This document shows, piece after piece, positions 126 through 48,272 of a stretch of DNA of 64,000 nucleotides (the first letter of the stretch is position 1; each line of letters begins with the position of its first letter). The stretch lies in assembly GCA_027946365.1 (NCBI GenBank), contig JAPEUQ010000005.1, positions 1,612,001-1,676,000 on the forward strand, given 5' to 3'. This stretch comes from Kalmusia sp. IMI 367209. Its lineage: Eukaryota; Ascomycota; Dothideomycetes; Pleosporales; Didymosphaeriaceae. Both the position numbers and the translations under genes were made by a program. The notes beneath the pieces are model-generated. The model ran no database searches, was not told where the DNA came from, and worked only from the letters and a program-made list of their open reading frames with translations.

Positions 126-2729
126 ATGAATACTAGCCTGACCGCCTACACCCACCTCGAGTCGCTGCTTCTGTTCCAGTCGCTCCATGCATACGGCGTA
201 GGCCCCCAGGTCTTCAGCAGGATCTCGGAGCTGCTGAAGACCAACCCGCACATCACTGCCGACAAGCGCTTCCAGAGCGGCCGTCTCAGTCCGGATGCCT
301 TGCGCAACTTCTACCTGCACATCTTGAAGGAGGAGCTCAGGAGCGAGCAGGCCCAGCCCGATGGCGACGCTCCCAACGGCGACGCAAAGCCCTCGCGCAA
401 GAGGAAGGCCCCCAGCCCGAGTCTGCCCACCGTGCAAGAGTCGCTGCAGCACCAGCACCTCATCCCGAAGCTGGTCAACAAGCTGTACGCCCACTACCGC
501 CAAGCCGTCACCGACCAGATCAGGCAAGACGAGGAGCGCTACGAACGATTGCAACGGGAGCTCCAGGGCATCGAGCGGGGCGATTGGGACGACCAGTTGA
601 GAGAGAGAGCGAACCAGAGGTCTGCGTCGCGGAGTCCCACCCTCCCCAGGAAGCCGCCGCTACTTTCCCAGCAGACTCCGCCGTCGAAGCCGGGTGCATT
701 TCCTCTGCCATCAGAGGCAAATCGCGTCGATGGGCCGCCAACCCTTGCGCCCGCGCCAGGCGGCGCTTTCCATCCCAATCTTGCGCCTGCCAAAACTCCG
801 CTCTCACAGAACGGTCAGGGTCCAGTAAAGGCCGGCCCGTCTCCTTCGCCACGGAAGACGAAGATACCTGCAGACCAGCAAGGAGCTCCGTCGACGCCTG
901 CGTCACAGGCTGAACTGGACCACGCCCCACAGCCTCCACAGACACCTCGATCGGCAGCATCTCATCCTGCGCAACAGGGTCATCCACCTCCAAATGCGCC
1001 ATACACGGGGCCTTCTCTGGCAAACCAACAGCCGTATCAACAGGCGCACCCTTCAACCCCAGGCTCTCAGATTGTGCCAGTTCCAGGGAGCCAGCATCCT
1101 TCCCACAAGGGCTACCCGCCGCATCTCCAAACAGCTTCAGCACAGCTGCATGGGGCTAAAGGTATGCCGCAACTTGCGCCGAACCTCGAAGCTAAGCCGC
1201 CACATGATTCTCCTTCGAGTCGTCAACGATTGTCGGGGCCGCATCAACCAAGCCCGCTGTCTCCCAGCATTCAAACGCCCCAACAGCAAAAGGGCTTTGT
1301 GCCTATTGCTGGGCAGCCACCCTACGTACCCCAGCATCAACAAGCAGGCCAGCCCCCGCCCCAAGTTGGTTTCATGCTTCCTCCCTTCCAGGTCGCACCA
1401 CAGGATCCTTCACGAGCCTTGCCGCAAGCCACCAATGTTCCCCAACAGCATCAGATCTCTACTCCTGTGAATGGCCGACAGCCCTCCTCCAAGGGCACGC
1501 CGCATACTGGTAGAAATGGAGTCCCTCCGATCCATGCTCTGAATGCTCAAGCAACCAGTTTCTCGTCTCCCTTGGGTATACGTGCTATCCTAAGCGCCTT
1601 ATCGACTCCCACATCACCCAAGACTGTGTGGAAGGCTTCCGCTCGGAGCTTAGGGGGTACACCAGTCCCGCGTCCCGATATCAGTCCTATCGATGACATC
1701 GAGTCCTTTCAAAAGCAAGAAGAGAGTCCCCCAAAGACGAAGACGACGCGGAAATCAAGGGCGAAAGGCAAAGCGAAGCAGAAAGAGCCGGAACCGGAAC
1801 CCCAGATCGAGTCCGACCAGCAGACCGAGGAGACGGTTCCGGAAATGGAGACTAGACAGGGGCGGTCACGACGAAAAGCTCCCATCAAAAGAGGCAGACC
1901 AGGCAGCATTGCTTCTTCACAAGCAGGCACATCCGTACGAGGCCGCAGCAGGAGCCATTCGATACTTTCTCATACGGAGACCATCGCGGCTGATAGCGAA
2001 TCTCAAGCTGGAGGTCGGATCAAGTCGGAGCGAGGGGCCTCGATCGACGTTGCCGACGAAGATGTGGCCGCAACTCCTACCCAAATGTCGACTCGTAGGC
2101 GTGGTGCCGCTACCCAGCCGAACAACAAACGCAAGCGAAATATGCGAGAGGTGACTCCCGAAGAAAGTGAAGGTCGGTCCAGGACTCCCGAGCTGCCCAA
2201 GACGATAATTGCGCTACGGCATTTCTCTCGCATGTGCGCACCTTTGATGAACGACATTGGTTCACATAAGCATGCCTCCACATTCACAACAGCGGTGAAG
2301 GCAAAAGATGCGGAAGGGTACTACGACATCATCAAGCGCCCCACTGATCTCAAAACGATCCAAAAAGCTATCGCAGCGGGGGCAAAGCAAGTCGCAGCTG
2401 CCGCCTCAGGCGACACACCAGCTGGCAGCCCAGGTGGTGCAGGGGGTATTGTCGAGCTGCCTGCCACCCCTGACAATATGCCTCCCAAGGCGATTGTGAA
2501 CTCGTCCCAGCTGGAGAAGGAGCTTATGCGAATGTTTGTCAACGCCGTCATGTTCAACACGGGAGAGGAAGGCGTTGTTGAAGACGCGAGAGACATGTTC
2601 GAGACAGTGCAACGGAGCGTGTCAAGCTGGCGAAGCGTCGAGAGAGCGAGTGGAAGGCTGGAAGTGGAAGAAACGCCGCCAGTATTGGACGACGATGTAC
2701 CAGCGGCTTCTAAAAGGAGGAAGCTTTGA
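126..2729 (+). CDS. BRD8-like bromodomain protein (probable NuA4 acetyltransferase subunit)
   Basis: Single open frame, 867 aa from the ATG at 126. The frame is open to the window edge, but the only upstream start-like codon is a GTG at 36, so I chose the first ATG; its MNTSLTAYTHLESLLLFQSL opening resembles fungal BRD8-type proteins (from memory). The N-terminal ~140 residues are helical and Leu-rich. Residues ~150-690 are low-complexity Pro/Gln/Ser-rich with basic patches (AT-hook or NLS-like). A bromodomain-like region follows at ~690-835, with the YYDIIKRPTDLKTIQ stretch (the ZA-loop/helix B signature), interrupted by an Ala/Gly-rich insertion, then LEKELMRMFVNAVMFN with the conserved acetyl-lysine-binding Asn. 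The C-terminus is a basic KRRKL. The inferred role is chromatin acetyl-lysine reading in a histone acetyltransferase complex. An additional upstream exon outside the window cannot be excluded. Confidence 0.85.
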   Translation: MNTSLTAYTHLESLLLFQSLHAYGVGPQVFSRISELLKTNPHITADKRFQSGRLSPDALRNFYLHILKEELRSEQAQPDGDAPNGDAKPSRKRKAPSPSLPTVQESLQHQHLIPKLVNKLYAHYRQAVTDQIRQDEERYERLQRELQGIERGDWDDQLRERANQRSASRSPTLPRKPPLLSQQTPPSKPGAFPLPSEANRVDGPPTLAPAPGGAFHPNLAPAKTPLSQNGQGPVKAGPSPSPRKTKIPADQQGAPSTPASQAELDHAPQPPQTPRSAASHPAQQGHPPPNAPYTGPSLANQQPYQQAHPSTPGSQIVPVPGSQHPSHKGYPPHLQTASAQLHGAKGMPQLAPNLEAKPPHDSPSSRQRLSGPHQPSPLSPSIQTPQQQKGFVPIAGQPPYVPQHQQAGQPPPQVGFMLPPFQVAPQDPSRALPQATNVPQQHQISTPVNGRQPSSKGTPHTGRNGVPPIHALNAQATSFSSPLGIRAILSALSTPTSPKTVWKASARSLGGTPVPRPDISPIDDIESFQKQEESPPKTKTTRKSRAKGKAKQKEPEPEPQIESDQQTEETVPEMETRQGRSRRKAPIKRGRPGSIASSQAGTSVRGRSRSHSILSHTETIAADSESQAGGRIKSERGASIDVADEDVAATPTQMSTRRRGAATQPNNKRKRNMREVTPEESEGRSRTPELPKTIIALRHFSRMCAPLMNDIGSHKHASTFTTAVKAKDAEGYYDIIKRPTDLKTIQKAIAAGAKQVAAAASGDTPAGSPGGAGGIVELPATPDNMPPKAIVNSSQLEKELMRMFVNAVMFNTGEEGVVEDARDMFETVQRSVSSWRSVERASGRLEVEETPPVLDDDVPAASKRRKL

Positions 2730-4279
2730 CGCATGCGTGATGGAAGTTATCTGTACCTTGGCCTTCTGTGGTGCTGAATGCACAGTACAATCTTCATGCA
2801 TTCATGCAAGTGATGACACTGCTACTTCGTTGATTCGATTTGAGAGGATATCGATATGCGGCGATAGACGTGTTCAATGAAACATAATTATTTCAAACCA
2901 TACGTACCGGCACCTTACCAATGTGCTCTAGATAGACCATGTTTTCACAAGCTGAAGCGTTTCCAATGTTCTACAGCAGTGCAGCAGTGCAGCGGCGCAG
3001 CGGTGCAGCGGTGCTGTGGTGAATGCGGCGTGTAGAGCGTCTGCGATGTTTACCAGGATGCATGCTCGCAAGTATGGTCCGATTATCACCCCACCTCTGC
3101 ATCCAGCGACACCAACACATGCAAAAGATATTCCCGGCGCACGAGAATAGCACCCCACATAACAATCAAAAAGCACTTTACTGAGATCCACGTTCCTGCA
3201 GCCTTGTGCTGAAGCTTTCGGCGGCTTCCGCCCGGTCGCTTCTTCCCGGGCGATCGAGGCTCGCTAGCGGGTTCAGAGCCAGCAGCGCACACAGAGACCC
3301 ATTGGATGGACTGCGAGGGAAAAATTGCCGGATGCATGTGAATGCAAACGGCAAGGTTGACTACGAGAAGGAAGAGGCAGACACCCGAAGGCTCCTCGTC
3401 CTCGGATGGTCGAGGAGATGATGACTAAGGCACAGCGACAAAATGTGGAGACCACGTGCGGAGCAGGAACTTTGGAACCTGTCAGCTCGACGATTCTTCT
3501 ACCAGTTGCCAAGGACTTTGCTCTCTTGGACGATTCGGCCGATGGTGTTATTATCTGATCGATCCGGCTTATTGTCGCGAGGTGATTTTTGACGGGACTG
3601 GCCTCTGGTAGTTTCTTTCTCTACATCGAGAGCAGACCGTTGTCCCTGGGAGATGATGGACTCCATGCATCCATGGTTACCGTGGCTCGCAAACTAGCGG
3701 CATGTCTGCGGCATGCTCTCATGGAAAAAGCGGCATCTTTTTGCATATCCGTTGGCCGCACAGACCAATTTCCGTTCCAAACCACCTGTAGGACTACCTT
3801 CGCCAAAGCATCCTTAGGTAAACCCCTCTCCCGGGAGCTGCCGAGCGCCCTCGTAGAGTGAGCTGTTGATGGTGCCATTGCGGAAGCTGCGCAATGATGG
3901 GCAATGTGTCGGTTGCACGGAGATGGCCCGCACGAAGATGCGGGTCTGGGTATAAGGAAACAAGGCGCGTGGACGGGAAGATCTATAGCATCATCATAGC
4001 CCCCGTCCCCACTAGAATATTCCACACAGGTGCTGGCAACTCGGCATCCCACACCATCCCAGCCTACTACGCTTCCAAGGAAAGTTGCAGGTACTTATAT
4101 CGCCAATACGACGCCGGACGCTTGCACACTTCCAAGTTCGTCGAGACACATCACACCAAGACTCTTGATAGGCCCGAACCCCTCAATTTTTTTCAACCCT
4201 ATCAGCTCCAACTCAAGCAGTGAATATATATACACCGAGTATCCCCAAACAAAAGTCCACGGCAACACTCACCTTCACC
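2730..4279. other. Intergenic region, no gene seen
   Basis: About 1.5 kb between the bromodomain gene and the bHLH gene. Open frames here are short and show no family resemblance. A small GC-rich direct repeat (GCAG/GCGGTGCAGCG units) lies at about 2974-3016. A TATA-like TATATATAC sits at about 4225, close to the bHLH start. Confidence 0.5.
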
Positions 4280-5161
4280 ATGGACTTCACCGACTATTCC
4301 TCGTTTCCAATCTTAGCGAGCCCCGCGTGCTCGCCTACGACCGAGGCCTACTCCTATCCGGCCTTCGACAAGGCATACATTGCAGGCCCCTACACATCAT
4401 CGTCCGATGCATCGCTCGCCGGGCTCGACACCTACTTCGACCGACCCATCTCCTCCGTAGAGGCACCCAAAGGCTTCACTGCGAAATCGCCAGTAACACC
4501 GACGACGACAGCAGCGCAGCTCAAGGCGCCCTTCAACCCGATGTTCGACCAGCCATTCGGACAGATCGAGCCGTTCTCATCCGGCTTCTCCTTCGATGCA
4601 AACACGGCCTCCTTCGACTTCAGCTCGCCCTCCTCGCACCACTCTCGCACACCGTCACTCTGCGGCGACGTCCCGCAGGACACGGCCCCGCTCACCTCTC
4701 CCCCCCTTTCACCACGCCCTCAGCTGAAGCGCGAGTCAACCGACTCCTCCTTCAAACTGGACTCGGCCCCCTCGCCCAAGCGCAAACGCGGCCGCCCCCG
4801 CGTCGACCGCGCCAACTCCTCCACCTCGACCTCCTCCAAAGGCCAGCACCGAACGCCGCGCCTCCCGCACAACCAGGTCGAGCGCAAGTACCGCGAGGGC
4901 CTCAACGCCTCTCTCGAGCGCCTCCGCAGAGCCGTGCCCACGCTGGTCCAGCCAGACGAAGTCTCCCTCCTCAGCCAGCCCCGCCCCAGCAAATCCATGG
5001 TCCTGGCCGGCGCAATCGACTACATCAAAGCCATCGAGAAGGAGCGCGACTTGCTCAGGGAAGAAAACGAACGCCTGCGCACCTGGGGCGACGCTTCTGG
5101 GAATCTCCGGGGAGGTGCATCGAGCTTCGCTGGCTTCTTGCCTACGAATACACGCACTTGA
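4280..5161 (+). CDS. bHLH-leucine zipper transcription factor, SREBP-type basic region
   Basis: Intronless, 293 aa. The ATG at 4280 is preceded by TTCACC (strong Kozak context); an in-frame ATG at 4220 lies in the likely 5'UTR. Residues 1-170 are Ser/Thr/Pro-rich and probably activating. A basic KRKRGRPR motif (AT-hook/NLS) precedes the bHLH at ~190-275. Its basic region HNQVERKYREGLN has Tyr where most bHLH proteins have Arg, a hallmark of SREBP-family factors that bind sterol regulatory elements. An expanded loop and the helix SKSMVLAGAIDYIKAIE follow, then a short heptad zipper. No transmembrane segment is seen, so it is not a membrane-tethered SREBP; it resembles the short soluble fungal members. 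Target genes cannot be read from the sequence. Confidence 0.9.
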   Translation: MDFTDYSSFPILASPACSPTTEAYSYPAFDKAYIAGPYTSSSDASLAGLDTYFDRPISSVEAPKGFTAKSPVTPTTTAAQLKAPFNPMFDQPFGQIEPFSSGFSFDANTASFDFSSPSSHHSRTPSLCGDVPQDTAPLTSPPLSPRPQLKRESTDSSFKLDSAPSPKRKRGRPRVDRANSSTSTSSKGQHRTPRLPHNQVERKYREGLNASLERLRRAVPTLVQPDEVSLLSQPRPSKSMVLAGAIDYIKAIEKERDLLREENERLRTWGDASGNLRGGASSFAGFLPTNTRT

Positions 5162-6569
5162 ATTCGGTGCCCTCTTCCCTCTCTTCCCCCCTTCCCTTCC
5201 GCCGAAAAAGTAGACGGAAGCAGATGAAGAAGAGAGCAATCTCACGTTCCATTGTTTTTTTTTCCCAGGGCAAAAAAATTAGGGCTGAAGACATTGGCTT
5301 CCAAGCACAGAAGTATCGGGAGGAAAGCATATCCAGTACTCTTTTTCCTTTCCTTGCATACGACATACCACACGGTATCAAACGCGTCCATTTCCGACTT
5401 CCCCGCATCTCCCTGCGATGGGTCTTCTTTGCAGCGGGTAACATTGCGCATCGCTTCATTCCATAGGCAAAGCGTCTTCCTTCCTTCCTTCCTTCCCTTC
5501 CTTCATTCGTAGTCATTTCATTCGGCGTCGGGGCTTCGCGTCTCCCGCTCGTTTGCCACCTCCCTCCATCAAGTGCTGAAGAGCGGGGATTGTTTAGGCT
5601 TTTGGTTTTCTTCTTCCAGACTTTGGGGTCTGAGATAAGTCTGAGATCTGGCTTCGGTCATCACATAATAGTAATTCGATTGCGTTCACTTGGTTGTTCT
5701 CACGCGCGAGCGCTGTCTGCACGTGGTACTTTCGTCGTTGGTGATTAGCTGGCATAATGGTTGTGCATTAAAGGAAGTGTAAGATTGAATATGGGTGTGC
5801 GGTCATCGAGGCTCCACGTTAATCTTCGGGTTCTTTCTACATGGGTTTGAATGGTTGGGCTTAGACTGGGCAACGGATTCTTTCGTTTGTCAGGGTGCTT
5901 TGATAACTGGGCTTTGGTTCCACGGGAGAGTGTGCTGGCATGGTATGAGTGAGGGCTCTGGGCTTGCACTGGGATGTGTTGTGATACGTGCACTGAGCAC
6001 ACTTACGAGACTGACGACTGGTGGGTTATCATTGGGGCTGTAACGCTGTTAGATCGGTGATGGTGTTGGTATCTTTGTTGGAGTGCTATGCGTGATATGA
6101 AGTCTTGGATGGACTTGGTGTTCATGATTCCTTGTGGCTCTTGCTTTATTGGAAGAAAAGAAAGAGTTTGGTCAAAGTGAGCTTGCATGTCCTTTGTTTC
6201 AGTAATAAGTAGAGTAATCTCATACGACTTTTCTATTTGTGAACAAGATTGGACGTTCATTGATCGCACCGGGTAAGACACGAGTGCATATTCATAGCAG
6301 TGAGGAATTGTGGTCAATAGCCTGGCGGCTGAGCTAGCTCCTAACGAAGTTCAAACTTCCTAGAGATAGTTTACTAACCTGATCCAGCAAGGGTCTCATA
6401 GTACTAGGGATTTGTGACATAAGTGAGGTATCTAAGCAATACGTGACACTTGTAAAACCCCTCAAAAAAAGCCTACAAAAAAATCTTTACAACTATACTT
6501 CCCGAGCTAATCTTCACGTCCTACTCTCCGCCTCCACACTCCTCCATTCCAATACCACCGCCCACCCCG
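5162..6569. other. Intergenic region with CTTC microsatellite
   Basis: 3'UTR and spacer between the bHLH gene and the converging P450 gene. A (CTTC)n tract lies at about 5476-5505. No supported gene. Confidence 0.5.
5476..5505 (+). repeat. (CTTC)n microsatellite
   Basis: Imperfect run of CTTC units in the bHLH 3' flank. Confidence 0.8.
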
Positions 6570-8280
6570 TCACGCAGGCGTCTTCCTCACATCCGTAATC
6601 TTCACCATCAACGGACTCTTCTCCCACGTATTATACGCCCTCAGCCCCCTAAACTCATCCTTGGGATCCCAAAGCGGCGCCCCATCCGCAAACTCCAAAT
6701 CAAAATGCCACAACAACGCGCCCAAGATAAGCCTCAACTCGACATAGGTCAAATTCCTGCCAATGCAACCGCGCGGCCCCAGCGAAAACGGCTGTGCCGC
6801 TTTCCTAACGTCGCCAGCGTACCGTGCCCTACTCTCGGGCGTATCCAGGAAGCGCTCGGGCACAAACGCGTCCGGGTCCGCGAAGTTGCGTGAAGAGTGC
6901 GCGGCTGCCCACGAGGCGACGCATACGGAGGTTCCGCCGGGGACCATGTGGCCGTCGATTAGGGCGCCGTCTTTCGGCACGGTGCGCAGTAGGCCAATGG
7001 GTACGGGTGGGAAAATGCGCAGTCCTTCTTCGATGCAGGCATTCATGTAGGGGAGGCTGCCTAGGACGTCCATGGTGAGGTCGGCTTCGGTTTTGCAGGC
7101 GGAGCGGAGCTCGTCTTTTATGCGCTGGTATTTGTCGGGGTTGCGCAGGAGGTAGTTGGTTAGGCCGCAGAGTTCGGTGGCGGTGGTTTCGCTGCCGGCG
7201 ACGCTGTTTCATAGTTAGTTTTGAGGTCTAGGGGTTGGGGGAAGGGGATCATTACATGAATAGGGCGGCGTTCATGATGACTTCGTCGTCGGAGACTTCG
7301 TTCTTCTTTTCGCGCTGCTTGAGGATGTACCAGATGAAGTCGCGGTGGTCGGTCTTGGTCGCCATGCGGCGGTTCGTCTTCTCCGTCGAGTTGCGTAGAT
7401 GCTTGTAGCGCCGCTCGCGGATAATGGACGGAATGCACCACATCATGAAGCGCTGTCCGAAACTGCCCGGCGAGGCGAAGCGGCGGGTGGCTTGCTCGAG
7501 GGCGCCTGCTTTGATCGATTCATAGACCAATACGACCCAATTTGCCGACTCTGAACCTTCGCCTATGCACTTTGGTCAGCATGTTTGTGTTTCGATGCTG
7601 AGGGTGATGGAAATACGAACCTTCCTGCAAGCACCCGAACGGTTCGCCAAAACTGAGATCCCCAATGATGTCGAATGTGCAGAAATTGAACCAAGAAACC
7701 ATATTCGCGTGTTCCCCCCTATGGCTCATCTCCCTCAATCGCTTCACGAAAAGGTCCACATACCCCTTCAAGATGGGCTCTTGTTCTAACAACGCCTGCT
7801 TACTAAACGCATGGGCAAGCGCCCTCCTCTGCCTCGCATGATGAATATCTGGGGCCATGGTCAGATTTGTTGCGCCGGGGATAGCCTCTACGGCGCCAAC
7901 ATGGATGGGATCCTTGTCCATGTTGGCCATGCCGACGCGGTGCCCGTAGATGTCTTCCCAGGCTTTGGCCGTGTTGAAACTGAGTTCGTTAGGCATGACG
8001 CGCACGACGGGGCCATAGCGGTCGTGTAGCGTTTTGTAGTCGAAGGAAATGCGGCCGCGGAGGAGAGAGATTATTGAGGGGATGGGGGAGATGCGCCAGA
8101 GAAGGGGCCCCGGGTATTTGGCGAGTGGATGGAGGGTGATGCGGTAGATTGCTACAGTGAGGAAGTAGACGACCAACTTCGACCGTTAGGTAAAAGGTGC
8201 TACAGGAGTAGGAAGATACGAACGACAATGGGTGTCCATATGGCAAATTGCCTGAGGCGCTCTCCGTCGACGAGACCCAT
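6570..8280 (-). CDS. Cytochrome P450 monooxygenase (isotrichodermin 15-hydroxylase-like group)
   Basis: Four exons (8280-8224, 8176-7621, 7562-7256, 7203-6570), 517 aa. The introns are 47, 58 and 52 bp with GT...AG ends and agreeing phases. The N-terminus has a hydrophobic membrane anchor followed by HPLAKYPGP. The I-helix oxygen-binding motif appears as IVAGSETTA across the last splice junction. Other landmarks are ExxR (EEGLR), the PERF motif (FVPERF) and the haem loop FSLGPRGCIGRNL with its Cys ligand. It is full length for a fungal ER-bound class II P450 and would need an NADPH-P450 reductase partner. The SGNH hydrolase and PRISE reductase nearby suggest a metabolite pathway; the substrate is unknown. 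The first short exon is the least certain. Confidence 0.93.
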
Positions 8281-34880: not shown

Positions 34881-37800
34881 ATGGCTCGTCACTCATTTGT
34901 GCGTACGCTATGTACGCTCTCTCTCCTGCTGCCAGGAGCTCTCTCTCATATGCAGATGTCGGAGCCCTCTCCTCTCCGTGATCCTCACAGCAACCGCACT
35001 TCTGAGCCCAAAGACTACAACATTCTTACGCCTCTTCATCCGGACGGAAGCGACTTTGCCTGTAAATTGTACCAGTACAACACTCCGCTTACCTCAGTCG
35101 CGACCTATGAAGCCGGCCAAACCTACCAAATGAAGCTCATGGGCGGAGCTACGCATGGCGGCGGTTCTTGCCAGGTCTCACTATCATGTGATCTAGGGCA
35201 GCACTTCAACGTGATCAAGAGCATAGAGGGAAACTGTCCGATCCAGAAAGAATACGAATTCACGATACCAGAGGATGCGCAGACGGCCAATCAGTGTCTC
35301 CTAGCCTGGACTTGGTACGTACATCCCCATGGAAGAGCTGCAAAAGCTGACACGTGATAGGTTCAACAAGATTGGGAATCGAGAGATGTACATGAACTGC
35401 GCGGTGGTCGACATCGTTGGTGCAAGCAGCTCTGCGAGGAAGATTGCTGGGCATTCTGGAGCCGCTGGGGCGTCCACCGTGGACACCTCTAACGCTGCTG
35501 CTCAGGCGGTCTTGGCTCGTTACCCGAAGCTGTTTGTTGCGAACCTGAAGGGGGTCAATGATTGCACGACGAAAGAGACTGTTGATGTTGTTTTTGACGA
35601 TCCGGGAACGGATGTTGAGTACGGTGACGGTATCGGTGCCTCTTCCCGCGTTAGACGTCGTCGCAGTACAGGTGCTTGCACTGGTACTGGGCGCTTGACT
35701 GCTGGCAAGGACTCGTCTGCTGGCACCGATTCATCTAGTTCTTCTGACTCATCCTCGTCTGGTGGCTCGACCGGAGGCAATGATGGACAATGGCATTCTG
35801 ACCAAAGTAGCCAAGATTCTTCATCTTCTGGTAGCTCCAATCCCGATCAAGGTAGCCAGAGTTCTTCATCTTATTCTTCCTCTGGCGGCTCCAGTGGGGG
35901 GGATGATGGACAGTACCATCCAGGTCTTAGTAGTAGCCAAGGGTCTGCCTCGTCCGGCACCTCCGGTGGGTTCGATGATGGGCAGTACCATCCTGGTCTC
36001 AAAAGCCTGGGCTCTTCTAGCCAGGGGTCTGCAAACCAGGGTTCCTCATCTTCTGGGAGCTCCAGTGGAGGGGATGATGGACAGTACCACCCCGATCTTA
36101 GTAGCAAGAGTTCTTCATCATCTGGCGGCAGCGATTCTAAGTCATCTTCACCTGCTTCCGACAAGGACGCAAACACAGAGATCGAGGCGGAGCTTAGGAA
36201 ATATCTCAGTACTCTTGGCAAGGACTCTTCTAAAGCCACGTCCGATGATCAGGAAGACGCTTCAACTCCTAACAAGAACACACTGTCGATTTCATTAAAG
36301 CACAAGGCCGCTTCTGGCAAGTTCTACGATCTGAGCAAGAGCAACAGCGACAGCTCTGCCGAAGCAGATTCTGGGCTTTACGCCTATGGTACTGACCGCG
36401 GGTCAAATGCCAAGTTCAGGAATCAGCTCAGTACACGCGGTGCCCAAAACGACGAGCCCACCTCATTACCGGATGCAGAGGGCTCAGAAGAAGATGGCGA
36501 CTCTGATTCATCCGATAACGGCACAGTTCCAGACTCTGGTCGCCTTGATCCCGACACGTCTCCGATCGAACCTGATGACGAGTCTAGTGATTCGCTTCCC
36601 GCTGGGCTGAAGCATGCTTTAGCAGATCTCGATAACACAGATCCGGACGACCCAGATGATGATGCTCTTCAGGGACTGTCTGACGAGCCGGATAACTACG
36701 ATCGCCTGAAGGTGGCTCCGAAGCCCAAAAAGCACAAGGCCGAGAGTTCGTCCAAGCACGTGAAGCATAAGACAAAGAGTGCGACTGAGCATTCGAAGCA
36801 GAAGACGAAACATCACAGTACTCTAGCGACTCACAAACGGACCCACAAATCGTCATCAGCCCCTAGTAATGATACTGCCTGGACAGAAGCTGTATCAAGT
36901 TCTGATGACGTTACTAGTTGGGCAGAGGCTGCTTCAACTCCTGGTGATGCTACTGTTTGGGCAGAGGCCGTATCGACCTCTAGTGAATTTGCTGCCTGGA
37001 CACCTGTCGCGTCTACACCTGTTGTTGAAGTAGTCGTTGAAAAAGAGACCCCTGCAGTGCTCTCAGTGTTTAGTTGGCCAGAGTCGGACTCGGCAAGTCC
37101 GTCAACACCAATCCCAGACGTTACTGAGCCGGTGTCTGCTTTCAGCCCGCCCGCCCCAGCGCCGACCGATGAACCCAGTTTATCCTCCTCTTGCACCCCG
37201 GGTACCTTTTTTTGCAAATCATCAGACCAATTCTATGTCTGTGGTCAATTCGGTGGCAGTAATGAATGGACATATGGCGCGCTTCGAGATGTCTCCAAAG
37301 GCATGGCATGCCAAGGCGGCGTCATTGCTCGCAGAACAGCAAAGGCTAAAAGGGGCTTCGGGTGGTTGATCAATGCCGAGACGAACGATGGCACTGCTAG
37401 CACCACTGATATGAATCCTCTTGACCCCATCTTGAACATCCTAGATGTCCTTATCGACGGCGTCGCGCAGCTGGCGGATGATGACTCTTCTTCCCATAAT
37501 TCCGACCACCAACGCAGCTGGCTCGTTGAACTGAAGCTGCTCAAGCGTCGTCTAGGTTGGTGGATATCCGGATCATCTGAAAGCTCCACCCCGACCAACC
37601 CTCTCGACACCATCACTGTAAAAATTGACACGCTTTCCAAGAGCCTCGATCAGGTCCTCGCCTCCCACACCAGCGACAAAGACAAATCGAGGAAGCGCAG
37701 TATGGGATGGTTTCTCTCCTTCACTGGCAGCAGCGATACCAGCAACGAAGGTAATAGCGAACCTGATCCCCTACAAGACATCCTAGCGAAGGTCGACAGC

Positions 37801-40800
37801 CTCACCGTAAAATTTGAGTCGCTACAGTCTGTATTTGCAGATGGGGACAAGACAGAGACGAAGCGCGGTCAGAGTTTCCTCGGCCTCGGCAGCGATGCTT
37901 TGAATAAGGCGATCCCTCAAGGGACGCCAGATGATCCGTTTGCACCCATATTGGAGAAGCTGAAGGGGTATGAGAATATTCTTCACAAGATCCTCTCCTC
38001 TCACACCAAGTATATGGCTTCTGGTGATGAAGATAACAAGGATAAAGACCATTTGCATAGTTCTAAAGAGTCTCATGAAGAGCATAGAATCGGCAAATTT
38101 CCTTGGGGCAAGCATCCTTCGAATAAGCGCCAAGCTGATGAAGACGAAGACGCCGAGCTTTCCGACGCTCTTGATTCTACCCAAGAAGATCCTGCTCTTG
38201 TTGAACCAGATAGCAGCACTGATTCAGAGGATGAGGACGACGATGACACTCCCGAATCCCAGATCGACGATCTCACTATTGAAATAGACGACGATGCTCT
38301 TAGTGACCCAGGTGAAGTCGTCGATGACGTGGAACCATCATTGGAAACGCTGCTGAACGCAACGGTACCACTGAATACTACACGAACATCCCCCCTAAGT
38401 GCTGTTCCGGAAGAGCCACTTCTCGGTGAAGCTCGACCTCTTGAACGAAGTACCGCGCAGGGTGTTAGCGCTGCACTTGGGAATCAAGGCTCCAGTGCTC
38501 CATCTACAGACGTCAAGTACGCTGGTGATGGTACCGTCGACGACGCTGAGGCTCTTTTTGGCGACCTTCATGGCACCACATCCGACACCAGTACTGGCGG
38601 TACCAGTGTTAGCGGTGACGGTACTGAAGATGATGCAGAGGGTCTTTTTGGCCCTAAGATCAGTATCACGCAGGATGCGCCAGCTCCGCAGAACTCGATC
38701 TTTAACCCACTAACAGATGGTGGTGATGGCACTGAAGACGATGCTGAGTCCCTCTTCGGCAGGAAAGATGTGAACATCACACAAGAAGCCCCCGCCGATG
38801 AACCACCTATGGTAGATGCTCCTATGCTAGACATCCTACCATTGGACCTCGACCCCACAGAGGACATTCCTGACGAGGATAGTACTATCCCAAAGGGTAC
38901 TGACGTAGATCTTGTATTTACTACAGAAGACACTCTTATGATCCATTTCACCACCGAAGATGGTCCCATCAAGAAAATTCCTGAAATAATTGCTCCTATC
39001 GATGATCTGCCTACAGAAGACGGTCCTATCGAAGAATTTCCTACAGTAGATGTTCCTCTCTGGACAAACTCTACAGGAAGTATTGCTATCTGGTCCGAGA
39101 ATTCTACAGCCGATGCTCTTACATCAGACATTCTCACTGAGGCGACTCCTACAGTAGTAGCTCCTATGAGAAACATTCTTGACATAGACGATCCTTCATT
39201 AGACTTTCCCGCCGAGCCGTCACCTATAGAAGTCGCTTCTATTGAAGATGCACCTATTGAGGATATTCCAACTCCTACAGAAGCTCCTATCGAGGCCGCT
39301 CCAACGCAAGCCTTTACCACGACACAGACCGCCTCCCTCGTAGATACAACTTTCGAAGACTCAGGCATCTTCACCTATCTGCCCCAACCAAAGCGCGAAG
39401 TTGACAAGAGGCAAGATTACGGGGATGATGTGGTCGTCCCAGGCTTCTCCTACAGTGATGGTGGTGATGGAGGCAACGGAATCGATGGCGTGGAATACGC
39501 CGTTGCAGACATCTTTGGACAACCAAAGGATGACGTGTATGATGGACTTGAGAATCCTAATGGGTCAGGAGGACCTCCTCAGCCGAAAGCGAGTACACCA
39601 GCTAAGGGGACGGGAAGAAAGAAGGATACCGAGGAAGCGAAAGAGACTGATGAAGAGGACGATGCGAGCGAGGATGAAGAGAGCGCAGACTATGCCCCGG
39701 AAGACTCTGAAGAGCCTAAAGAACCCGAAGAACCTAAAGAGTCTAAGCAGCCTAAAGAGCCTAAAGAGCCCGAAGAGCCCGAAGAGCCCAAAGAAACTGA
39801 AGAGCCTAAAGAGTCTGAAGATTCTAAAGACTCTGAAGGTTCTAAGAAGCCCGAAGAATCTAAAGTCTCTGCTAAGAAACCTCAACAGTCTAAAGGCCCT
39901 GGGGCTTCTGAGAAACCTGGAAAACCTAAAGTCTCGACAGATTCTGATAAGCCTCAAGAATCTGAAGAAGACGACGAAGAAGACGAGGAAGACGAGGACG
40001 AAGAGGGTGATGAAGATGAAGATGAAGATAAAGAAGAGGACGAAGAAGAAGAAGAAGGGGACGAAGGAGGTAACCCATGGAAGCCGGCTGCTATTCGCAA
40101 GGTAAAACGAGAAGAGCTGGCTTCTCTAGGCTTGACATTTAGTGATGGGTCTAACGGAGGTGACGGCGTTGATGTTGATCCAGTTGCTGTCTTTGGCTTC
40201 AATGAACCTGAAAACTATGAACGAGAATGGGGTATCGCTGAGCAAGCTCAGAGAGAGAAACGACAAGCCCCTACTCCTCCCGCTCGAGGCCTCCCTACTC
40301 CCACCCAACATGTCAACCCCGCTGACGTCACTCCTATCGATCCGGCTGCTATTCCTCCCGGCTTCGACTTTAGCGATGGTTCCAACGGTGGTGACGGTGT
40401 AGATGATGATCCAGTTGCTGTTTTCGGCTTCGACGAGCCTGAAGACTATGAAGAGGAATGGGGTGTCGACGAGCAGGCTCAGAGTAACGGCACTGCAACA
40501 CCTACGGTCCGACCTAGTGCGAATGCTGCATCTCCATCTCCAGGCAAATCAAGACAACATCAAGCAGTTCCACCAGCTCCTGCGCCTGAGGAACTTCTTG
40601 CAAACGGAGCTTCCGGACCAGTACCCACTGCAGCAGAGAGACAACAGATCCCAGCCCCAGTTGGTGAAGCTAGCATTATCCCTATCCCTAGGGGTAGTAT
40701 TCTTGGTGAAGCCGTGCCGGCTCCGTCGGTTCCCGTCCAACTTCCTGGGCAGGTTGGCAAGACCATAGCTACGCCTCCAAGCCCCAAGTCCGGCACGATC

Positions 40801-42215
40801 GTGAAGTCGAACGCTCGCCTGCCTGCTCGTCCTCTACCACCTGCTCCCCTTCCCTCAAAGCCCCTCCGCTCCCACCTGCTCCACTCCCACCAGCTCCCTA
40901 CCTCCACAAGCCCTCCACCCCACCGGCTTCTTTACTTCCTCAAGCTTCCCCTACTTTCGAAGCTCCCCCTCTCTTTGAAGCTCCCCCTGTCTCACAAGTA
41001 AGGGCTACCCCAATTCCCACCGTCGGCGTCGACATCCCGCTGAATGATCCTCTTCTCCCCATCGTAGCAGGTAAAACTAAGCCCGCCCCCGGCTTTTACG
41101 ATTCACCTGCTGCTCTCCAGGCCGCGAATGCCGTTCCTCTTGAGCAAGACGTCCCTGAAGCGCAAAGCATCACGGGGCCCATTGGCAAAGCGGGTGCAGG
41201 TGCGTTGGCTGGCGTTCCTAAGCCAAGCGGACTTAACGTGACTGCTGCTCCAAGACCTGATGAGGGTGTGAAGAGTAATGTTGCGGGCGCTCCGAGTACG
41301 AAACCGCCGCCGCCATCTGGAGGTGGCTCTGTGGACCCGGGTGATGGGACGGACGATGCAGCTGAGGCGATGTTCCCGGACCTTGCTCCAGCAGGCGCAA
41401 AAACCGTAAAAACGAAACCTGAGGAAGACGATGGAGAGAGCACAGCTAAGAAGGCTCCAACGAGCGATGACAGTGAAGAACCAAAAGCGGAACCCAAAGC
41501 TAAAGAAGCTAGCGAGGAGAGTGAGGATGATGAACCTGATGAGGAAGACTCAGACACGGATGAAAAAGATCCTTCTGACGACGCTGATGAGGACGAGGAG
41601 GAGGATGATGACGACGACAACGAAGACGCCAAAGAAGAGACGGTGAGGCCTAGACGACCTTCTACCCCTATCATAACACCGCCAGTGGTCCCATTGGCGC
41701 CGCAGTCGTTCCCAGCTGTTATACCCAATATCACCGTCGTAGCCCTCGCAACTGGCGCAGTCGTCAAATTAGCCACCTGGAAAGACGGTGTGCTTATGCA
41801 CGGCGATTCGCCCGCCTCTTCTGCTCCATCTCCATTGCCTACCCCGAACATCGCCGCCTCAATCCTCCCATTCTTTATGGGCCCAGGACCTGTGATCCCC
41901 TCGGGTCTAAGCCTCAACTGGCCTGGTCCATTCAACCTACACAATTTGCCCCCATCAACCACTCTGTCTCCTGTTGTCTCGATGACATCGATTATCGAAC
42001 CTGCTGCTACACCTCTCGCGTTGGAAGCAGCCGGAATACCGCCACCAATGGGCCTGCCGCCATCAGGCCCGCCGGCCCCTCCGCTTCCCGATGTTCCACC
42101 GAGTGCGGAGCCCTCGGTCAAGAGACCTGTGAATAAGGTGGAAGCCGTAAGGAGAGCAGTTGCGATGAAAGAAGAGAGGAACAGGCGTGAGCAGAGTAAG
42201 AAGCTGGCTGGTTAG
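34881..42215 (+). CDS. Giant secreted AA11 lytic polysaccharide monooxygenase with repetitive Kex2-site tail (frame break near 40.85 kb)
   Basis: Exon 1 34881-35314, intron 46 bp, exon 2 from 35361. A signal peptide ends ALS, then mature HMQMSEPSPL supplies the N-terminal copper His; THGGG gives the second His and REMYMNC the axial Tyr, the AA11 (chitin-active LPMO) pattern. Next come a Ser/Gly linker with DGQYHP repeats, Trp-rich repeats, and a Cys domain at 37191-37320 (CTPGTFFCKSSDQFYVCGQF), probably the X278 module that ends ordinary AA11 proteins. Here the frame runs on: ~50-60-residue units ending in KR (37.35-38.13 kb), DGTxDDAExLFG repeats, Glu/Pro/Lys repeats and an acidic run. At ~40.78-40.90 kb the coherent Pro-rich reading moves to another frame, which continues to the stop at 42215. 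No intron of suitable phase is evident, so a one-base indel is likely. Total ~2,430 residues. Confidence 0.8.
35765..36125 (+). repeat. Four DGQYHP-type Ser/Gly repeats in LPMO tail
   Basis: Four copies of [GF]xDDGQ[YW]H[PS] followed by a Ser-rich spacer, encoded at about 35.78, 35.90, 35.97 and 36.07 kb. Confidence 0.75.
37346..38133 (+). repeat. Tandem dibasic-bounded repeat units in LPMO tail
   Basis: Four units of ~50-85 residues each begin after KR (sites at ~37.35, 37.54, 37.69, 37.86 and 38.12 kb). The first three open GFGWLI, LGWWIS and SMGWFL; the middle of each has [ND]PL-x-x-I...KIDxL; the ends are Ser/Asp/Lys-rich. This is the pattern of fungal Kex2-processed repeat proteins. Confidence 0.7.
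38517..38780 (+). repeat. DGT-DDAE-LFG repeats
   Basis: Three copies of GDGT[VE]DDAE[AGS]LFG. A fourth relative (GDGTDDAAEAMF) lies at ~41.34 kb in the post-break frame, and longer cousins (SDGSNGGDGVDxDPVAVFGF) occur at ~40.14 and 40.37 kb. Confidence 0.75.
39700..39960 (+). repeat. Glu/Pro/Lys/Ser short tandem repeats
   Basis: Runs of GAAGAGCCTAAAGA-like units encode EEPKE, EEPKES and related pentapeptides, followed by an acidic Asp/Glu run to ~40070. Confidence 0.8.
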
Positions 42216-43376: not shown

Positions 43377-44480
43377 TTAACTAAAGTTTAGAGTGTTTGC
43401 GCTCCCATACATCGTCTGGCCTTGCAATACATTCCTTCCCTGAACAGAGCCAAAATTTTGAAACGTCAGCCCTCCTGCCGGCTTCGACTCGCCTTCCGGG
43501 AGGCTCTCTTGAGTTTCCACCGTCGTGATTGTCTCGTCCACTCTGCGCACCTTTGCTATCTCGGTCCGCGGAAGCACTGACAGCACCTCCTTTGCGCACG
43601 CTGCGGCCGTACCCGCTGCGTATGGCTGCCACTTCTTGTTTTTATGTGAATCGGCATAGTCGCAGATCCCTCGAATGGCAAGACATGGGAAGCTGTTCAT
43701 CAGCCCTGCAGCCTCCATCTCGAAGCAGAGCACTCCGCCAAACTCCTTGCTCACGGTGTCCCTCTCTGCAGCGTATTTGATGACCTGGTTGCCCGACGCA
43801 ATTGTTCCATAATGGATTACAGGTTCTTCGCTGGGTCGCGGCTGTCGGTCGACTTGTCCATCCGCGGTGCATGACTGGCACGTTTGCCCATGTACGTGGT
43901 TGTATTCTGCTTTGAATAGGACGTCCGACCCGGCGGCCTCGCGAGTGAAGTCTGGAAGCCGCCGAAGCTTTGCGATGTGTTCGGCGAGCTTAGTCTTTCG
44001 CCGGACTTGGTTCGATCGCAGCTTGTTGATTGCACCCAGCAATATCGTTGGTGGAGCGTTCAGGAAACCCGTCCGCTGAAACCTGTTTGGAGTTGCCTTT
44101 CCAAAGTCGTATTGTATCACCCCACCGTGGCCTAGATGCGGTTGGCTAACCACCACGTCTCCCAGCCGGATGTCTACCTCTGCGCTCGGCACGCCGCCTC
44201 CAATGCCAACCATTAGGCCGAACCGCACCGATCTGAACGTCGCTCGCAGCTGCGTCGCCACCGCTGCCGCAGGGTTGTTGCCTATCAAGCCTGCCGGCAG
44301 ACACACGATAACGACGTTGTGTTCACCAACCCGTCCGAGTGAGTAAATGTTGGAGTCGTGTTCATCCTGCTCGAGATCTTCATGCTCTTCGTCGAGCATC
44401 TCCTGTGCAGCCGTTAGCTCGATGGGGAGCGCGCATATCCATGCTATAGTGTAGTCGTCACGGCCGAGCCGGCGTGCCAT
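43377..44480 (-). CDS. PNP/UDP-phosphorylase-domain immune-type effector with C-terminal amyloid-like motif
   Basis: Intronless, 367 aa. The N-terminus DYTIAWICALPIELTAA and GLMVGIGGGVP open the nucleoside phosphorylase (PNP_UDP) fold used in fungal NLR proteins. Other blocks are RLGDVVVSQP, VLCFEMEAAGL (ribose-binding Met-Glu), RGICDYADSHKNKKWQPYAA (catalytic Asp) and a terminal helix. After a ~30-residue linker the last ~30 residues read FQNFGSVQGRNVLQG then a GSANTLNF end. The start of the divergently transcribed NLR has the same motif. Homologous effectors include enzymes that cleave purine nucleosides or ATP; activity on ATP is inference here. The most economical reading is that the NLR templates assembly of this protein through the shared motif. 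No secretion signal. Confidence 0.9.
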   Translation of the reverse strand: MARRLGRDDYTIAWICALPIELTAAQEMLDEEHEDLEQDEHDSNIYSLGRVGEHNVVIVCLPAGLIGNNPAAAVATQLRATFRSVRFGLMVGIGGGVPSAEVDIRLGDVVVSQPHLGHGGVIQYDFGKATPNRFQRTGFLNAPPTILLGAINKLRSNQVRRKTKLAEHIAKLRRLPDFTREAAGSDVLFKAEYNHVHGQTCQSCTADGQVDRQPRPSEEPVIHYGTIASGNQVIKYAAERDTVSKEFGGVLCFEMEAAGLMNSFPCLAIRGICDYADSHKNKKWQPYAAGTAAACAKEVLSVLPRTEIAKVRRVDETITTVETQESLPEGESKPAGGLTFQNFGSVQGRNVLQGQTMYGSANTLNFS

Positions 44481-45171
44481 CTAACGATCTATTGGATCGC
44501 AGAAACTCGTGGAGGTCGTGAGTTCGTGGAGATAGATTGCAACTTGCGAAAGCGATATAGCAACGGCAACGGCCGCCGGTCGAGGACACATTGTTGCGTG
44601 CTCAGCCTCACTTTGTCACAGTTGAGGGAGGGCTTTGCAGCACTCACCGGTCGGAGACTCACCGGTCGGAGAGCAGTAATCAGCCAGGGTCGGGGATGCT
44701 CGAGGGCCTTCGCCAACGGCTCACGCCAACTCTCAGGTCCCACTTGTTGCTGGGCCTGTCATTTTGTGCCGAGAGTCACTTTGGAATATCAAGCAGATGA
44801 GGTGAGCCAATACACATCTCATGTTGTTTCTCATAGCAGCTCTTGTTCGATGACCCATACGACATGTGGCTTGGCGAGCATCCATTCCGAGCTGCGAACG
44901 ATGTTGCTGGCGACGCAGAAATTGGCGGGGGCCACCGCTGACCAGGCGGGGGCCGTAACGTTGGGCTAGGCTGCGGCTCCTGCCGAAATCCCTCTCGCTT
45001 GCGCTCAGGTCTGGAGGCTGCACTACGCTCCTCTCACAACACTACACTATTCCCTTTCATTGGACGTGCAAACCACTCTGTTCATCAACGTCAAGAACGT
45101 ATGCGCTTGCTTCATCGCAAGAGCGCATTCATTTCGCCCGTCAGTGGCCTAGCATCAATGAGACCTCTAAT
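44481..45171. promoter_or_regulatory. Bidirectional promoter of the PNP effector and NLR genes
   Basis: About 690 bp between the two start codons, which face away from each other. It includes a perfect 15-bp tandem duplication at 44642-44671. No other coding exon is convincing. Confidence 0.55.
44642..44671 (+). repeat. Perfect 15-bp tandem repeat in the shared promoter
   Basis: ACTCACCGGTCGGAG occurs twice back to back. Each copy holds the palindrome ACCGGT and a CGG triplet, reminiscent of zinc-cluster factor sites. Confidence 0.75.
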
Positions 45172-48100
45172 ATGAGCCTAGCGGGCCCTGACTTCCAATC
45201 GCACGGGCCTGTTCAAGGCAACAACGTGCTCCAAGGTGTAACGACGGGCAACAACACTATAATCAACTTCCTAAAGAGCGGCAAAGGCGGAGCCCCACAG
45301 GGTGAAAGGGAAGGTTTGTACACCCTTGCTAGACCTACAATATACCTCCAGACATCTAACACGTCGCAGCCTGCCTCCGCACCCTCGGCTTCCTCGAGAT
45401 CGACTCGCGCGAGCAAGATATCAGCGCTGCCGTCGAAACAACGTGCGACTGGCTGTTCGATACGCTCGAATTCAAGAAATGGCAAGATCGAACTGATCTG
45501 GTGACCAATAATGGAGTGCTTTGCATCAAAGGAAAGCCGGGTGCGGGCAAGTCGACGTTGATGAAGCATACGCTGGAGCACTGCAAGAACGCCTTTCCCG
45601 ACAATCTGATTATCGCCTACTTCTTCAGCGCCCGAGGAAGCACTCTAGAGAAGAGTCAGCTGGGGATGCTGCGGTCCATCGCATACCAACTTGTCAAAAA
45701 AGACTTTGCGCTGTTTGACCAATTCCTCGACACCTTTCGCGACAGAAACATCACCAGTCAAGGCCGTCAATGGGAATGGCAACCACGACAACTCAAAGCT
45801 TTCATCCGTTCTGTAATCAAACGCTATAGATCAAAGCCACTACTCCTCCTCGTGGATGCGCTGGACGAGTGCAACGAGGCGGAAATGCAGCATGTCGTAG
45901 AAATTCTCGAATCGCTGAGCATCGATGCAAACAGATCAGGTACCACTCTAAGGATCTGTCTGTCCCGACGCCACCATCCGCCTCTCAGAATCGCAAAGAG
46001 CCTGGAGTTGATCGTCGAGGACAACCAAGACCACCGGGAGGATATTGCCACATACATTAGAGCGAAGTTAGCGAGACCGGGACGAGATACCGGAATCGAA
46101 GCCGAGATTGAGAAAAAGGCAAATGGGATCTTCATGTGGGTTGTGCTCGTGGTCAGGTTACTGAACAAAGCCTCGTTGAAGGTGAAGGGCAAGAAAAAGG
46201 CAATGCAGGATGCGCTTGAGGAGATCCCAGGCGAGCTGGAAGAAGTGTTCCGAATTATGTTCAACAAAGATGACAAAGACATGGCTGAGACGGTGCTTAT
46301 GCTGCAGTGGGTACTGTTTGCGCAGCGGCCACTAACGCCAGAAGAGCTTTATGCTGCCGTTGAAACAGGAGACACGGACTTATGGAGTCCATCAAGCGAT
46401 AACGACCACGATTCTATACAGCAGAGCATCGAGAATTTGTCCAAAGGGCTGATCGAGATACGAGGTAGGAATCGGGCAACTGTGCAGTTCATTCATTTGT
46501 CAGTCAACGATTTCCTTCTCCGAAACAAGAGGCTGCAAACGTTGCACCAGGCGCTGGAGCCTGACCCAGTCACTGCTAGCCACCACCGTCTCTGGGCCTG
46601 CTGCTGGTCACTTATTGAGCATGTTAGCAATATAAGCACGAAGAAGACATATAAGGAACTGCGTCGTGAGTACCCATTTCTAGGGTACGCAGCAAGTCAC
46701 ATATTGGACCATGCCAAAAAGGCCCTAGATGAAGGAGCTGCTGGACAAGCAGGTGTTCCAATCAAAGAGTGGCTGCGACACAGTAGCAGCTGGTTCAAAT
46801 GGTGGAAAAGCTTTCTCATTGCTACTGACGCTTCCGACGAGGAAATATACCCAGTAAGAAACATGGATGCAGGACTATTGTACATGCTATCACTTCGTGG
46901 TTATGGAAGCTTGGTTAAGTGCCTGTTGGCTGAGGATGGCGAGGAGGGCGAGGAGGGCGAGGAGGGCGCGGACGTCAACGCTCAGGGTGGCCTCTACGGC
47001 AATGCGCTCCAGGTAGCTATATTACAAAGAGAGCAGCAGATTGTTGAGTTGCTGCTTAAGGCGGGCGCGGACGTCAACGCTCAGGGTGGCTTCTACGGCA
47101 ATGCGCTCCAGGCAGCTTCATATAAAGGAGAGCAGCAGATTGTTGAGTTGCTACTCAAGGCGGGCGCGGACGTCAACGCTCAGGGTGGCGAGTACGGCAA
47201 CGCGCTCCAGGCAGCTTCATATGAAGGAGAGCAGCAGATTGTTGAGTTACTGCTCAAGGCGGGCGCGGACGTCAACGCTCAGGGTGGCTTCTACGGCAAT
47301 GCGCTCCAGGCAGCTTCATTTGATGGAGAGCAGCAGATTGTTGAGTTGCTGCTCAAGGCGGGCGCGGAGGTTAACGCTCAGGGTGGGGAGTACGGTAATG
47401 CACTCCAGGCAGCTTCATTTAATGGAGAGCAGATTGTTGAATTGCTACTTAAGGCGGGCGCGGACGTTAACGCTCAGGGTGGGGAGTACGGCAACGTGCT
47501 CCAGGCAGCTTCATATCAAAGAGAGCAGCAGATTGTTGAGTTGCTACTCAAGGCGGGCGCGGACGTCAACGCTCAGGGTGGGGAGTACGGCAACGCGCTC
47601 CAGGCAGCTTCATTTAATGGAGAGCAGCAGATTGTTGAGTTGCTGCTTAAGGCGGGCGCGGACGTCAATGCTCAGGGGGGCCCGTATGGTAACGCGCTCC
47701 AGGCAGCTTCATATAAAGGAGAGCAGCAGATTGTTGAGTTGCTACTTAAGGCGGGCGCGGACGTCAACGCTCAGGGTGGCGAGTACGGCAATGCGCTCCA
47801 GGCAGCTTCATATAAAGGAAAGCAGCAGATTGTTAAGTTACTGCTTAAGGCGGGCGCGGAGGTTGACGCTCAGGGTGGTGAGTACGGCAACGCGATCCGG
47901 GCCGCCTTATACCGGGGACACTACGATATCGAAAACATGCTCCGTAAGGCAGGAGCAACAGCCATTGCTCAACATACTGAGTTCGAAGTCGTCAACGCCG
48001 GAGTAGCTGACACAGAAGGTGTCAGCGTCGAAAAGAGACATGAAGGCGCTTTGCCCGAAGCTGCGCCAGCCATGGGTTCTCCAAGCACAGAAACGCCTTC

Positions 48101-48272
48101 ACCCGGGATATGGTTTCCACTTCAGCTGCTGTGGATTTATGCTTCCCCGCGCCTGGCCCTGCTTTGGCCAGGACTGTTCTTCATAGGAACAGGCGGAGTT
48201 GTTCTATGGTTGGTGAGAGGTAGACGTGTGGCTTCTACATGGTTTGGAAATATTTGGCGTAATCATATCTGA
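45172..48272 (+). CDS. NACHT-ankyrin NLR receptor with N-terminal amyloid-like motif
   Basis: Two exons (45172-45313, 45370-48272), 1014 aa, with a 56 bp intron (CTAAC branch). Residues ~5-33 hold FQSHGPVQGNNVLQG and a following NNTIINF, matching the neighbour's C-terminus. The NACHT domain begins with the usual CLRTLGFLEIDSREQDI lead, Walker A GKPGAGKST, Walker B LLLLVDALDE, and a C-terminal helical lobe with QFIHLSVNDFLL. From 46965 to 47951 come ten ankyrin-type units of 33 residues (one has 32), almost identical. The tail ends in hydrophobic segments (LLWIYASPRLALLWPGLFFI and a GGVVLWLV stretch), possibly membrane-associating. This is a fungal NLR that would oligomerise on sensing a ligand and nucleate the amyloid-like motif in its effector. 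Confidence 0.95.
46941..46967 (+). repeat. 9-bp minisatellite (GAGGAGGGC)x3
   Basis: Three exact copies encode EEG repeats immediately before the ankyrin array; in-frame length variation is expected here. Confidence 0.85.
46965..47951 (+). repeat. Ten-unit 99-bp ankyrin repeat array
   Basis: Units begin GADVNAQGG and end VELLLKA. Variation is concentrated at the residue after AQGG (L, F, E or P) and at AAS[YF]xxE. Unit 5 lacks one Gln codon (96 bp). The last unit is diverged. Confidence 0.95.

Follow-up and report, generated by a model that had tools for sequence, protein, structure and literature searches.

The stretch of DNA analysed here, called the window in what follows, spans 64,000 nucleotides (contig C26, 1612001-1676000) of the genome of cf. 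Kalmusia sp. IMI 367209, an endophyte (Pleosporales, Dothideomycetes); the genome searched was its assembly of 42,784,582 bases in 30 contigs. The window holds a gene for an enzyme of the PNP_UDP family and a gene for a NACHT-ankyrin NOD-like receptor (NLR), which lie head-to-head and divergent with 691 bp between their ATGs, and whose products share a short motif at the C-terminus of the enzyme and the N-terminus of the receptor. Both genes had been placed at these coordinates, about 690 bp apart and facing away from each other, by an initial annotation made from the sequence, and the open frames, the Pfam matches and the measured spacing confirm it. The features of the locus are as follows.

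43377..44480 (stop included), minus strand: PNP_UDP effector gene, a single intronless exon with an open frame of 367 residues
43380..43469, minus strand: C-terminal motif of the PNP, residues 338-367, LTFQNFGSVQGRNVLQGQTMYGSANTLNFS, matching the NLR head and kept in 12 other PNP proteins
44481..45171, no strand: divergent intergenic region of 691 bp between both ATGs
45172..48272, plus strand: NLR gene, 1014 residues, with exons 45172-45313 and 45370-48272 and an intron at 45314-45369
45184..45273, plus strand: N-terminal motif of the NLR, residues 5-34, GPDFQSHGPVQGNNVLQGVTTGNNTIINFL, matching the PNP tail
45441..45965, plus strand: NACHT-type NTPase region (NPHP3_N, residues 72-246; Pfam E 1.5e-30)
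46960..47902, plus strand: ankyrin array of 9.6 copies of a 99-bp unit with 89% matches (Tandem Repeats Finder; Pfam Ank and Ank_2)
48159..48215, plus strand: hydrophobic C-terminal segment, NLR residues 978-996, a possible membrane anchor (Kyte-Doolittle mean 1.89 over 19 residues)

The motif is about 27 residues long and rich in G, N and Q (FQNYG[SP]VxGKNVLQGQT..G.SNTLNF). When the last 46 residues of the PNP are aligned with the first 48 of the NLR, the Smith-Waterman score is 67 with 16 of 30 columns identical, a score reached by none of 20,000 shuffles of the PNP tail (shuffle maximum 61), so that the shared segment to which the initial annotation had pointed is real. No other local alignment of the two full-length proteins scores higher, and the NLR head is the best match of the PNP tail among 3,670 translated 46-residue stretches of the window (the NLR's own overlapping frames aside). 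G, N, Q, S and T make up 60% of the motif as against 26% of the PNP domain, and its net charge is +1; a profile of the motif has no match to PDB chains at E up to 10. Pfam shows no effector family between the motif of the NLR and NPHP3_N, and on this layout the receptor places the motif where other fungal NLRs hold an effector domain. With one short tag present on both neighbours, the receptor is likely to activate the enzyme through clumping of these tags.

Pfam assigns residues 11-299 of the PNP to PNP_UDP_1 (PF01048; 2e-12, above cut-off). An AlphaFold2 model built with 44 sequences has a mean pLDDT of 80.9, falling below 50 in two stretches, residues 127-138 and residues 322-367, the second of which takes in the motif and the last part of the linker. 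Foldseek returned 271 chains for this model at E <= 0.001, and the 50 listed are nucleosidases of the methylthioadenosine/S-adenosylhomocysteine (MTA/SAH) type and futalosine hydrolases (TM 0.66-0.82 by target length). In a profile search that gave 30 PDB sequences at E <= 0.001, E256 and D274 of the PNP align with E175 and D198 of the Helicobacter pylori enzyme, as numbered by manual count on the printed alignment. The aligned Asp has a catalytic role in MTA/SAH nucleosidases, and PDB entries titled D198N and Asp197Asn are mutation studies of this residue. The PNP is therefore predicted to fold like an MTA/SAH nucleosidase and to retain the acidic catalytic residues, and its substrate may be MTA/SAH, adenosine or ATP. 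The immune ATP nucleosidases of bacterial defence are likewise PNP_UDP superfamily effectors in NLR-type immune proteins, and PMC10197012 and PMC12881547 mention that immune PNP domains cleave ATP. Those enzymes act on ATP or dATP; for the PNP here ATP as the substrate is not supported, its predicted fold being nearest to MTA/SAH nucleosidases.

The NLR model includes an intron of 56 nt (GTTTGT...CTAAC...CAG, with a fungal-type branch sequence) that is placed after the motif and is one among many frame-compatible choices. The public model N0V90_005868 (P0003) has the same N-terminus and first junction, but its C-terminus differs and is without the hydrophobic segment; the Zopfia orthologue (P0004) supports the splice junction and the C-terminus given here. 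The hydrophobic segment is kept in that orthologue (Kyte-Doolittle mean 1.91), and its conservation suggests that it could anchor the NLR in a membrane. Besides NPHP3_N and ankyrins, Pfam gives a NACHT match below its cut-off (23.8 of 26.7 bits). Pfam Ank stretches number 9 in the window NLR versus 2 in the Zopfia orthologue, and the near-identical units of the ankyrin array fit the repeat turnover that has been reported for fungal NLRs (PMC4986451).

The same motif family is carried by a second, unlinked head-to-head pair in this genome. The PNP tail matches contig C29 (E 1.4e-4 in the own-genome search), where an alpha/beta-hydrolase (DUF676, 2.2e-6, above cut-off; L012:3894-4808, plus strand) ends in NYGSVSAKNVLQGQQIHGGTNTWNFS, and where a divergent NLR-like gene begins MSRAMTTSTYASVETANVLQGLGIHGGHNVFTFT. 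The latter has tetratricopeptide repeats (TPR) together with AAA_16 and NB-ARC matches below their cut-offs, so that the pair reads as an alpha/beta-hydrolase beside an NB-ARC-like/TPR NLR. Alignment scores between the four motif instances were each set against 5,000 shuffles. No shuffle reached the scores of 88 for PNP and hydrolase, 71 for hydrolase and TPR NLR, 67 for PNP and NLR, or 56 for PNP and TPR NLR; the scores of 41 for NLR and hydrolase and 32 for NLR and TPR NLR were reached by 5 and 80 shuffles, respectively. The closest likeness is thus between the two effector tails, and cross-seeding between the modules would be a fair prediction.

The idea that the motif is general to the PNP genes of this genome was rejected: a loose pattern that recovers the C29 pair found it in 0 of 10 other PNP loci that were fetched and read in six frames (10 of 11 other loci were covered, the small match C13:509439 being left out). 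At 4 of these 10 loci the strand of the PNP also bears a P-loop, either in frame with it or a short way downstream, a cis-type PNP-NLR arrangement. A PNP_UDP paralogue with a PP-like tail, NNSGVQVVHYTGSMKNIF, lies on contig C28 of the same genome (G000; L051, 922-2043, plus strand), and the next gene (2593-7347, plus strand) encodes a 1584-residue TPR protein whose N-terminus is PP-like, its Ses_B match (E 0.01) falling short of the cut-off. No NTPase domain appears in this protein in a Pfam scan at E up to 0.1, and it is possibly a receptor without a nucleotide-binding domain. On contig C25, a 96-residue frame has a PP-like start (L052:4929-4991, minus strand), MASSTSFDHSNSGVQVGNNYGTLH, which is below the Ses_B cut-off.

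Homologues in other species were sought with a profile of two PNP orthologues, and the best 120 of 7,997 scored candidates comprise the window's own PNP and 119 others. The motif ends 12 of these 119, down to 62% overall identity (P0002, P0009-P0016, P0019, P0038 and P0062; in P0013 it was missed by the regular expression and counted by eye), and the named hosts are Periconia macrospinosa, Phaeosphaeriaceae sp. PMI808 and Bathelium mastoideum, all Dothideomycetes. Since 69 of the 120 have fewer than 330 residues, there is hardly room for a tail in them. For the 13 PNPs selected for carrying the motif, pairwise identity averages 0.72 in that segment, below the domain (0.80) and above the linker that precedes it (0.56). 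P0038 and P0019 are 0.89 identical in the motif and 0.68 in the domain, which hints at an exchange of tails among PNP domains. On the receptor side, a search with the first 48 NLR residues gave two proteins from 7 candidates, the window's own and one of Zopfia rhizophila, which is 90% identical, with 32 of 35 positions identical over residues 1-35; a search with the last 46 PNP residues gave two from 3 candidates, the window's own and that of Periconia. Among viral contigs, 29 stretches matched a pattern, none of them a relative, and the contig search of other genomes gave one relative, a fungal-looking contig that is filed as a bacterial metagenome-assembled genome and whose PNP is without the motif; neither search gave a second pair. 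The initial annotation had tied its reading to the presence of the motif in orthologous pairs: the motif is found in other PNPs and in the Zopfia NLR, and among the proteins listed no second species shows both partners.

Other short G/N/Q-rich tails occur among the 120 listed PNP_UDP homologues and are candidates for further signalling motifs. Four proteins (P0024, P0055, P0072 and P0091) end in IGEQVxxKTVxGNQ, two (P0037 and P0084) in VQGNYIGRDxGIF, and P0119 in GVQANQYIVHGNNIVG. One contig with fungal-type PNP and NB-ARC-like genes (L053, NYXK01000071.1) is filed in a metagenome-assembled genome of Deltaproteobacteria, which is probably a binning error. Elsewhere in the window, at 35305-41001 on the plus strand, lies a 1898-residue open frame of low complexity, rich in Ser, Pro and acidic residues, that has no Pfam match at E <= 0.001.

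To what class does the motif belong? Seventeen motif instances were scored against definitions of published motifs taken from PMC3321046, PMC4518210, PMC5485727 and PMC9815663, with shuffles as the baseline. For the HRAM definition ([NQH] at position 3, hydrophobic residues at 5, 8, 10, 16 and 18, R/K at 15 and G at 19; PMC4518210), the instances show 4-5 of 8 features where shuffles average 3.9. For the three-fold repeats of the sigma motif they show 2-3 of 5 positions with sigma A (GxGxQFN; shuffle mean 2.3) and 2-4 of 8 with sigma B (GGTQNINT; 2.7), and for PUASM (FxGxGxQxxGxGxF) 2-3 of 7 (2.7); alignment to the published PUASM peptide is at chance level as well. NACHT_sigma (PF17106) is not among the Pfam families shown for the window proteins, the C29 hydrolase or the tested homologues, and a search of the genome with its profile found nothing, the controls there staying below the cut-off as well. 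The full PP pattern gives 3-4 of 11 positions (shuffle mean 3.5). The PP core NxGxQxGxN is kept at 4 of 5 positions in 11 of the 17 instances and at 3 of 5 in the other six (shuffle mean 2.3), its central Q being missing from all 17; this partly kept N-x-G...G-x-N frame points to a possible distant link to PP. An hhalign comparison with five PP-type instances of this genome gives a probability of 3.9%.

The Ses_B family, which describes PP, is absent from the Pfam families shown for the window PNP and NLR, the C29 hydrolase, P0009, P0012, P0062 and P0004 in scans reaching E 10 (the lists of both ankyrin NLRs being covered as far as E 0.17, short of the last 3 of 28 families in one and 5 of 30 in the other), and from those shown for the C29 NLR in a scan reaching E 0.1. 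A HeLo effector gene on contig C1 (L050, 4131-5267, plus strand) encodes a C-terminal PP motif and is divergent from TPR-NLR frames (4264-1699, minus strand) with an N-terminal PP motif, both above the Ses_B cut-off; by these matches contig C1 holds a genuine PP pair, which serves as a control for the profile. Pattern scores, Pfam results and hhalign together led to the rejection of membership in HRAM, PP, sigma and PUASM. A literature text search for NVLQG gave nothing related, judged by title, and a literature search on amyloid-motif NLR/phosphorylase pairs in Dothideomycetes found none. Among the 10 listed of 11 papers that contain the term PUASM, two deal with these motifs. The surmise of the initial annotation that the motif is possibly little studied holds so far, in that the motif lies outside the four published definitions that could be tested, although it may equal PF01048_015 (PUASM 2) or NLR34, two motifs known by description.

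By sequence and by analogy, the window pair is likely to be a signalling module of two genes, an NLR and its effector, of the kind known from NWD2/HET-S. A ligand would be sensed by the ankyrin array of the NLR and, as its family suggests, the receptor would oligomerise via the NACHT domain. The N-terminal motifs thus gathered would form an ordered cross-beta seed, and this would act as a template for the matching motif in the disordered tail at the PNP C-terminus; the PNP domain, clustered and activated, would split a purine nucleoside or nucleotide at its N-glycosidic bond, and the expected outcome would be arrest or death of the cell. The initial annotation had read the locus as a complete sense-and-kill module. 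The receptor/effector part of that reading fits what was testable and the published architecture as described in PMC3321046 and PMC9815663, while killing and templating stay predictions.

The architecture of the gene pair is already known: Daskalov et al. 2012 (PMC3321046) described UDP-phosphorylase/STAND pairs that have a prion-like extension in common, and Wojciechowski et al. 2022 (PMC9815663) described PNP_UDP/NLR pairs carrying PUASM, for which they showed fibrils and a prion-like state. Any novelty would lie in the motif and in the second module. The pairs of PMC3321046, from Aspergillus oryzae, A. terreus and Magnaporthe, have the same architecture and effector family, but the window pair has neither their sigma repeats nor a NACHT_sigma match. 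The PUASM pairs, from Pezizomycotina, set a PNP_UDP with a C-terminal motif beside a NACHT NLR with an N-terminal motif, as here; unlike PUASM, which PMC9815663 describes with PNP_UDP only, the present motif is also on a hydrolase, and it departs from the PUASM pattern. NWD2/HET-S of Podospora anserina (PMC4518210, PMC5485727) also pairs an NLR N-terminal motif with a C-terminal motif on an adjacent effector, but the effector here is an enzyme rather than a HeLo pore former, the motif is single rather than doubled, and HRAM features are at shuffle level. HELLP-type pairs with PP/RHIM-like motifs are head-to-head too, and part of their N-x-G...G-x-N frame is shared, but the central Q and any appreciable profile similarity are lacking here.

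Several observations weigh against a conserved amyloid module. In close relatives the motif fares no better than the domain (between Kalmusia and P0009, for example, 0.74 versus 0.89). Within the best 120 PNPs and the two NLRs from 7 candidates, no second species was seen with both partners: Zopfia appears only on the NLR side, no PNP named Zopfia being among the 120, and Periconia, Phaeosphaeriaceae sp. PMI808 and Bathelium appear only on the PNP side. The PNP tail is closer to the C29 hydrolase tail than to the NLR head (88 versus 67), and own-genome searches with each motif alone missed the partner, one or two candidates being scored. The motifs of both modules are in no Pfam amyloid-motif family, and amyloid formation, cross-seeding and enzyme activity are inferred from the sequences.

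The alternative that survives best is that the motif is no separate class, being instead PF01048_015, NLR34 or a divergent PP, and that the module is simply another member of a known group; we regard this as quite possible, if somewhat short of probable. By description, PF01048_015 is a second PNP_UDP-associated motif with four pairs, and NLR34 is a 28-residue motif of ascomycete NLRs for which PMC9815663 describes no effector (PMC9815663, PMC12261475; the latter speaks of PUASM 1-2); the score of 11 of 17 instances on the PP core also counts for this alternative. As to PP itself, the missing central Q and the low profile-profile probability speak against it, and Ses_B finds the real PP pair in this genome yet is not shown for the motif proteins. 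As to PF01048_015, PMC9815663 describes it as unique to PNP_UDP, in four pairs only, yet the motif here is also on a hydrolase.

A second alternative keeps the pairing and dispenses with the amyloid: the motif would be a docking or oligomerisation tag, through which an activated NLR recruits the PNP stoichiometrically, with no self-propagating fibre. The whole of the sequence evidence fits any homotypic interaction, and the motif profile is without a solved-structure match; but in size, position, composition and disorder the motif agrees with the fungal amyloid motifs of PMC3321046 and PMC9815663, of which those put to the test form fibrils, and a docking tag is unlikely. It is very improbable that the segment is a relic of a split ancestral PNP-NLR fusion or of a duplicated 5' segment, a tag without present function. 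The genes are indeed divergent neighbours, and fused or adjacent PNP-NLR arrangements do exist at 4 of the 10 other PNP loci, but the motif outlasts the linker in other species, sits at opposite protein ends, recurs on a hydrolase and an NB-ARC-like/TPR NLR, and is closely shared by P0038 and P0019 on domains only 0.68 identical. Chance likeness of two G/N/Q-rich tails, for which the compositional bias of the motif might be invoked, is contradicted by the same-composition shuffles and can be dismissed.

For the signalling module, then, the wider claim is a further amyloid signalling motif family of Dothideomycetes, at work in one cell in two unlinked modules with different effectors and different receptors; we put this forward tentatively, as a possibility more doubtful than the module itself. 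If it is true, and if the motifs do seed one another, each of the two receptors could set off both enzymes, giving a branched NLR network that runs through one amyloid fold. Such a family would add to the few amyloid signalling motifs listed for fungi, and it would show one motif family serving both an enzyme of nucleoside metabolism and a hydrolase within one genome. Two modules that share a motif family and a third, the HeLo/PP pair on contig C1, that does not would make a natural test of specificity, in which seeding could be measured in one host. The finding also bears on how PNP-type immune enzymes, which elsewhere are fused to NLRs, may be switched on in trans.

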